Part shown: piece after piece, positions 1,112 to 1,322 of the stretch
Layout of the letters: every line of letters starts with the position of its first letter
How positions within the stretch are numbered: position 1 is the stretch's first letter
DNA from: Pyrinomonadaceae bacterium
Lineage (GTDB): Bacteria > Acidobacteriota > Blastocatellia > Pyrinomonadales > Pyrinomonadaceae
Assembly (NCBI GenBank): GCA_013812565.1
Contig: JACCTF010000664.1
Span: 1-5,660 of the forward strand
Direction of reading: 5' to 3'
Length of the DNA: 5,660 nt
The notes under the pieces: model-generated
Database searches by the model: none
Seen by the model: the letters and a program-made list of their open reading frames with translations, nothing else
What the model was told of the DNA's origin: nothing
Made by a program: the position numbers and the translations under genes

Positions 1112-1118
1112 AGATTAA
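1112..1118. repeat. Left copy of putative target-site duplication (AGATTAA)
   Basis: AGATTAA abuts the left inverted repeat of the MITE-like element and recurs at 1316-1322 immediately outside the right one. Removing the element and one copy rejoins a continuous AT-rich intergenic sequence. The chance recurrence of seven bases exactly at both borders is low, so I read it as a duplication made on insertion. Confidence 0.7.
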
Positions 1119-1315
1119 CTCACCTTACGCGATTGGGCGGGCGAAACCCGCTCGACCATTTAGCAACTACAAGTAATTGCGGTTTTCTGAAGAATTGATC
1201 GCCTGAAACTGCCTGCAAAATACTCATCGAAAACAACAAAGAAGTTGCCAAACATCACAAGGTCAACCAGTTAGCAGGATTTCAGAAATCTTCACAACAG
1301 ACCGCGTAAGGTGAG
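1119..1315. mobile_element. MITE-like non-autonomous element, 197 bp
   Basis: The ends are perfect 13-bp inverted repeats: ctcaccttacgcg at 1119-1131 and its exact reverse complement at 1303-1315. Directly outside them the 7-bp sequence AGATTAA occurs on both sides (1112-1118 and 1316-1322) in direct orientation, as expected of a target-site duplication. The match can be read as 8 bp (GAGATTAA) because the terminal base of the right repeat is also G. The interior is far too short for a transposase, so movement would require an enzyme supplied elsewhere. A small GC hairpin (1137-1141 with 1147-1151, loop CGAAA) lies near the left end. The insertion falls just after the sulfotransferase stop codon and leaves that gene intact. 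I cannot assign the parent IS family from the termini alone. Confidence 0.78.
1202..1309 (+). pseudogene. Possible remnant of a transposase C-terminus within the MITE
   Basis: Inside the element a 35-codon stretch stays open and ends with TAA (1307-1309) within the right inverted repeat. It encodes a lysine- and glutamine-rich tail including KILIENNKEVAKHHKVNQ. It has no start codon, and a stop (1196-1198) lies just upstream in frame. In many insertion sequences the transposase gene runs into the terminal repeat, so this could be the 3' end of the parent transposase kept after internal deletion. I do not recognise the peptide, and chance is a serious alternative. Confidence 0.2.
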
Positions 1316-1322
1316 AGATTAA
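1316..1322. repeat. Right copy of putative target-site duplication (AGATTAA)
   Basis: This is the partner of the AGATTAA at 1112-1118, directly adjoining the right terminal inverted repeat. The identity of the copies suggests a fairly recent insertion. Confidence 0.7.

Follow-up and report, generated by a model that had tools for sequence, protein, structure and literature searches.

The window analysed here is an entire contig of 5660 bp (G000:C234) from a fragmented source genome (5.34 Mb, 1103 contigs) that is 90.7% complete. It contains a miniature inverted-repeat transposable element (MITE), the features of which are collected in Table 1, located between two genes that encode a sulfotransferase (526-1110, Pfam Sulfotransfer_3) and an alpha/beta-hydrolase (1388-2587). 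The stop codon of the sulfotransferase gene is located at 1108-1110, and the left duplication begins 2 nt downstream. Direct reading and a repeat search revealed that the 13-bp ends are exact reverse complements, 171 nt apart, with AGATTAA flush outside both; the preliminary description of this DNA, which had reported the ends and the doubled heptamer, was correct to the base. The hairpin consists of a 7-bp stem and a 5-nt loop, and its one G-T pair is an A-T pair in a second copy of the element. The sulfotransferase gene is rare in the family, being present at E <=1e-20 in three of 119 genomes including the source, with relatives in many other phyla. Between it and the upstream frame, a long imperfect palindrome of repeated GTCCAAGGTC-type words occupies positions 385-454 of the window (arms of 23 nt, 87% complementary, with a spacer of 13 nt).

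Table 1. Features of the 197-bp element and its borders (positions in the window)
Feature	Position	Strand	Basis
Left copy of the 7-bp target-site duplication, AGATTAA	1112..1118		sequence
Left terminal inverted repeat, CTCACCTTACGCG	1119..1131	+	sequence, repeat search; 13-mer also found 77 times in G007
197-bp MITE	1119..1315		second copy, 94% identical over its full length, at G000:C417:4785-4981
Short GC-rich hairpin in the element	1135..1153	+	read from sequence and alignment; paired in the RNA fold
Right terminal inverted repeat, CTCACCTTACGCG on the minus strand	1303..1315	-	sequence, repeat search
Right copy of the 7-bp target-site duplication, AGATTAA	1316..1322		sequence, repeat search

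The role of chance was assessed with 1000 first-order Markov windows of the window's length, in which a perfect 13-bp inverted repeat within 500 bp was sought. Such a repeat occurred in 49 of the 1000, whereas none additionally contained an identical 7-bp direct repeat flush with it; on its own, the inverted repeat is therefore only mildly unusual, and its combination with the flush duplication is not due to chance. No frame of at least 50 aa lies within 1119-1315, so that the element is devoid of a transposase gene, in agreement with the earlier view that it is too small to encode one. The sole frame of at least 50 aa which overlaps it (977-1198) starts inside the sulfotransferase gene in a different frame.

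Apart from the Markov test, the existence of the element is settled independently by the second genomic copy. A further copy with a different flank, which the preliminary description had proposed to look for and whose absence was to count against it, is present in C417 of the source genome; it is likewise 197 bp long, lies at an unrelated site, and is flanked on each side by TGAACTAA, a duplication of its own. The alignment of the two copies runs to the final base of the terminal repeats and collapses outside, so the homology beyond the borders that had been named as a second objection was not found. Judged by reading frames alone, the neighbours of the second copy look like an M16-type peptidase and an aminotransferase. 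Since it occupies two unrelated genomic sites and lacks a transposase gene, the segment is a miniature mobile element, and the second copy, the terminal repeats, the duplications and the missing transposase gene together uphold its identification as a MITE. The 197-bp element has thus moved in the past. In the source genome, its first 67 bases matched the two copies and five weak places at E values up to 10 (best E 0.17). The 13-mer with one mismatch was found at six more places, which are taken as chance, and with two mismatches the reversed control was as frequent as the pattern (160 versus 154). An orthologous locus, and with it an empty site, was not found: the sulfotransferase occurs at E <=1e-20 in just two of 118 other family genomes, and among the best 80 of its 281 relatives none has the window's other genes nearby.

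A different explanation would be that the segment is a conserved element acting in cis, for example a terminator or regulatory RNA of the sulfotransferase gene, whose likeness to a transposon is accidental. On both strands, its RNA folds better than shuffled sequences (z -4.8 and -4.6), which would suit such a role, and the inverted ends alone may account for these values. However, the second copy adjoins different genes, the flanks are duplicated at both sites, no Rfam match to the element was obtained, and neither terminator-like nor promoter-like sites were found in 1050-1450. A cis-acting function of this kind is therefore considered extremely improbable.

The whole element, used as a query, gave no match in 96 further genomes from the family and class, nor was one obtained against plasmids in distant mode, and a 24-base end pattern was absent from viral contigs. 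A paired-end search for the exact 13-bp ends, 156-186 nt apart, was performed in 162 genomes of the class including the source. Exact pairs were identified in two of them, namely the source with two copies and G007, a genome from another genus of the same family, with four copies of different interiors. The exact 13-mer occurs 77 times in G007 and its reversed control not at all. In a draw of 396 genomes from the phylum without G007, the exact 13-mer was present in 16, the source included; outside the source no genome contained more than two, a maximum also reached by the reversed control, and single hits were no commoner than those of the reversed control.

For G007, a catalogue of 47 candidate pairs was compiled, covering 59 of the 77 exact 13-mers, in which a pair was included if it had no more than one mismatch in total or if six or more of its seven flank positions matched. 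This catalogue is biased towards duplications, because flank matches were one route of admission. A stricter set, with at most one mismatch and two nested pairs dropped, comprises 39 pairs, two of which are insertion sequences. Here, 25 pairs have an exact 7-bp duplication, two an exact 8-bp duplication, four match at six of seven positions and eight at fewer; these last eight are a point against the main explanation given below. By their interiors, the 43 elements shorter than 400 bp fall into a group of 16 (200-216 bp, one of 361 bp), a group of 26 (275-296 bp) and a singleton. Most of the 77 exact 13-mers lie on two MITE families whose interiors are unrelated. A separate group is made up of the two source copies, which have just about 22 terminal bases in common with some of the G007 elements. 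Eight of the 43 elements have a partner of at least 99% identity at a different site, which suggests a recent spread, in G007 only. Unpaired ends were present at 13 more loci, of which 12 matched MITEs, none matched an insertion sequence, and five were contig ends. Since these five contig ends fall inside MITE copies, such repeats bear on the fragmentation of assemblies. The shorter family (L117-L120) is rich in small GC-rich palindromes such as GCGGCTCTGCCGCC, unlike the source element.

No transposase remnant was found in the MITE interiors, a further point against the main explanation. The possibility that these interiors are deletion relics of insertion sequences is not supported by matches longer than 18 nt, as the sole one among the seven insertion-sequence pieces compared is a stretch of 22 nt that five G007 elements have in common with L174, an insertion sequence of G007.

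A common target was recognised in the duplications. Among 30 exact 7-bp duplications (26 distinct), 16 fit the pattern TNANTNA at all four fixed positions, seven at three and seven at fewer, compared to 0.5% and 4.1% of 25,357 background 7-mers for four and three positions, respectively. AGATTAA matches three of the four. The 8-bp duplications TGATTTAA and TCATTTAA of G007 and TGAACTAA of the second source copy all have the form TNA-NN-TNA, and such 8-bp variants would explain why the two source copies differ in having 7 and 8 bp.

Full-length insertion sequences with the same ends, which the preliminary description had expected as further proof, were identified in relatives, with ends that are identical or differ by one base. 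The intact transposase of L174, which has the ends CTCATGTTACGCA, was used as the query at E <=1e-30, and relatives were present in eight of the 162 class genomes; no relative was found in the PDB. Two of these relatives belong to intact elements. The one in G005 is 1124 bp long and has CTCACCTTACGCA at both ends, the duplication TAAGTAA and an open transposase gene of 357 aa; the one in G108 is 1113 bp long and has the same ends, the duplication TTAATAA and an open gene of 354 aa. Both transposases exceed the cut-off of the NCBIfam model NF049921 (IS701_2), and both pairs of ends agree with the MITE end at 12 of 13 bases, the 13th being different. Among insertion sequences, exact copies of the 13-mer were found only on broken or truncated ones. 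In G007, an element of 1127 bp at L151:1288-2414 has CTCACCTTACGCG at both ends, and another of 1127 bp at L171:949-2075 has it at one end with one mismatch at the other. Each contains an in-frame stop, the transposase gene of L151 is broken, and a piece of the broken G007 transposase matches Pfam DDE_5. The single visible end of L231, a truncated copy in G108, is exactly CTCACCTTACGCG. Neither L151 nor L171 has a 7-bp duplication, which is counted against the main explanation together with their broken genes and the differing 13th base of the two intact elements; a clean 7-bp repeat is also absent from L174, which has a 6-bp repeat only, and from L178 (1342 bp, ends CTCACGTTACGCA), which has no duplication. 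At L151:987-2414, a 296-bp MITE and the broken 1127-bp element, with the same ends, are separated by five bases. A plasmid element of Polaromonas, from outside the phylum, is annotated as IS701 family; it has CTGATGTTACGCA at its ends and the 7-bp duplication TATTTAA, and relatives in Thiothrix and Stanieria have the same 13-base ends with no duplication visible.

Ends shared with autonomous insertion sequences, a hallmark of MITEs, were thus found in relatives, where broken or truncated elements have them exactly and intact ones at 12 of 13 bases, and the partner type of the MITE has likely been identified there. The explanation we hold to be highly probable is that a MITE without a transposase gene, present at two unrelated sites, is moved in trans, as predicted from the shared ends and the 7-bp duplication, by the DDE transposase of 1.1-kb IS701-like insertion sequences. 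Its past movement is shown; present mobility and the mechanism in trans are what we infer. The transposase would bind and cut at the 13-bp ends, the element would be joined into an AT-rich, dyad-symmetric target (TNANTNA, occasionally TNANNTNA), and repair of a 7- or 8-nt staggered cut would give rise to the duplication. Another, unrelated transposase with coincidentally similar ends might be responsible instead, given that mobilisation by IS701-like elements is a prediction and that the exact 13-mer, as far as insertion sequences are concerned, lies just on broken or truncated copies. However, the IS701-like elements match the MITEs both in their ends (12 or 13 of 13) and in the length of the 7-bp duplication, and TAAGTAA and TTAATAA both fit TNANTNA, the same type of target as that of the MITEs. 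An unrelated mover is accordingly regarded as unlikely.

The source genome contains two IS701_2 genes over the cut-off among ten matches. One, in C1071, is truncated where its contig begins and has a single visible end, CTGATGTTACGCA; the other, in C837, has TAGGACTTACGCA ends. No insertion sequence with exactly CTCACCTTACGCG ends has been assembled in this genome, which is again counted against trans-mobilisation by the IS701-like partner. The cognate element may have been lost or may be unassembled, or a resident relative whose ends are less similar may have taken its place. For the same reason, and because the two source copies are about 6% apart, the "recent" mobility suggested at the outset is not sustained, the divergence speaking against a very recent movement of both copies. 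It could even be that the movement of the MITE lies far in the past and that it has since become fixed, the source genome having no transposase left that recognises it. The presence of just two copies about 6% apart and the missing CTCACCTTACGCG-ended insertion sequence are in line with this; perfect ends and perfect duplications have nevertheless been kept in both copies, and repeats are typically lost from assemblies as fragmented and incomplete as this one. Such a fixed relic appears possible, if somewhat doubtful, and it rivals the trans-mobilised MITE in respect of present activity alone, not of MITE identity.

By the curated profile, which is exceeded in G000, G005, G007 and G108, the partner transposases belong to IS701. 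The IS701 family as published comprises elements of 1400-1550 bp with a 4-bp duplication and an incomplete YREK motif, according to the available part of the 2008 definition (PMC2266710), and the same length and duplication are given for ISTth8 in the corresponding part of PMC6352166. The partner clade does not fit this definition. Despite the match to the IS701_2 model and the IS701 annotation of the Polaromonas relative, partner-type elements are 1113, 1124, 1118 and 1127 bp long, their duplications measure 7 bp in G005, G108 and Polaromonas, and YREK is complete in five of the seven transposases examined (L174, L177, L178, L180 and L181), with F for Y in L172 and C for Y in L226, whose ends differ. 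The ISPepr1 subgroup of IS4 is described in the accessible text of PMC2266710 with 1500-1600 bp, 7-8 bp duplications, YREK and the end consensus YT-AA-YTT---A. It resembles the partner in its duplications, the YREK motif and ends starting with YT, but the partner measures about 1.1 kb and matches the consensus partly. For L174, the IS4 models score below their cut-offs, the best giving 111 bits against 250, so that the partner fits this subgroup neither in length nor in profile.

ISAba11 is akin to IS701. It has a similar length of about 1.1 kb, and differs in its 5-bp duplications, as far as the accessible portion of PMC7885321 describes it. Good descriptions of bacterial MITEs that have a partner insertion sequence are given in the parts of PMC6382973 and PMC11578231 at hand. 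Like the element presented here, MITEAba12 with ISAba12 and MITEPye1 with IS1182 are, in these parts, short, lack a transposase gene, have target duplications and inverted ends that resemble the ends of an insertion sequence, and occur in few to many copies; their ends and partner families are different. MITEAba12 has 9-bp duplications without a clear sequence in the part of PMC6382973 concerned, while those found here are of 7 bp (some of 8 bp) with a clear preference for TNANTNA. No report tying a MITE to IS701 was found in the literature searched, to which ISfinder and most subscription papers did not belong. Nor was any found that joins IS701, miniature inverted-repeat and target site duplication, or three of the terms MITE, IS4 family, IS701 family and 7-bp; the portions of the Acidobacteria literature that were available name miniature inverted-repeat transposable elements in a reference only.

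The kind of MITE is thus already known, and it is tied here to a probable partner family, so that a blank intergenic stretch becomes a mobile element with a probable partner. The 13-bp end together with the TNANTNA duplication provides a usable signature for annotating such elements. Insertion sequences filed under IS701 with 7-bp duplications and a full YREK suggest that this family needs subdividing. A broader proposal, whose probability we place just short of even, is that the 13-bp CTCACCTTACGCG might be the whole passport, serving three MITE families with unrelated interiors in two genera, all inserted into TNA-N-TNA or TNA-NN-TNA. Their movers would then form a separate group of 1.1-kb insertion sequences, with a complete YREK and 7- to 8-bp duplications, outside both IS4 and the published IS701. 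A second IS701_2 clade, represented by L226 (G000:C837:359-1339) and L225 (G007:C79), has TAGGACTTACGCA or TAGGAGTTACGCA ends; it has the inner TTACGCA in common with the partner clade, and L226 is without the YREK tyrosine.
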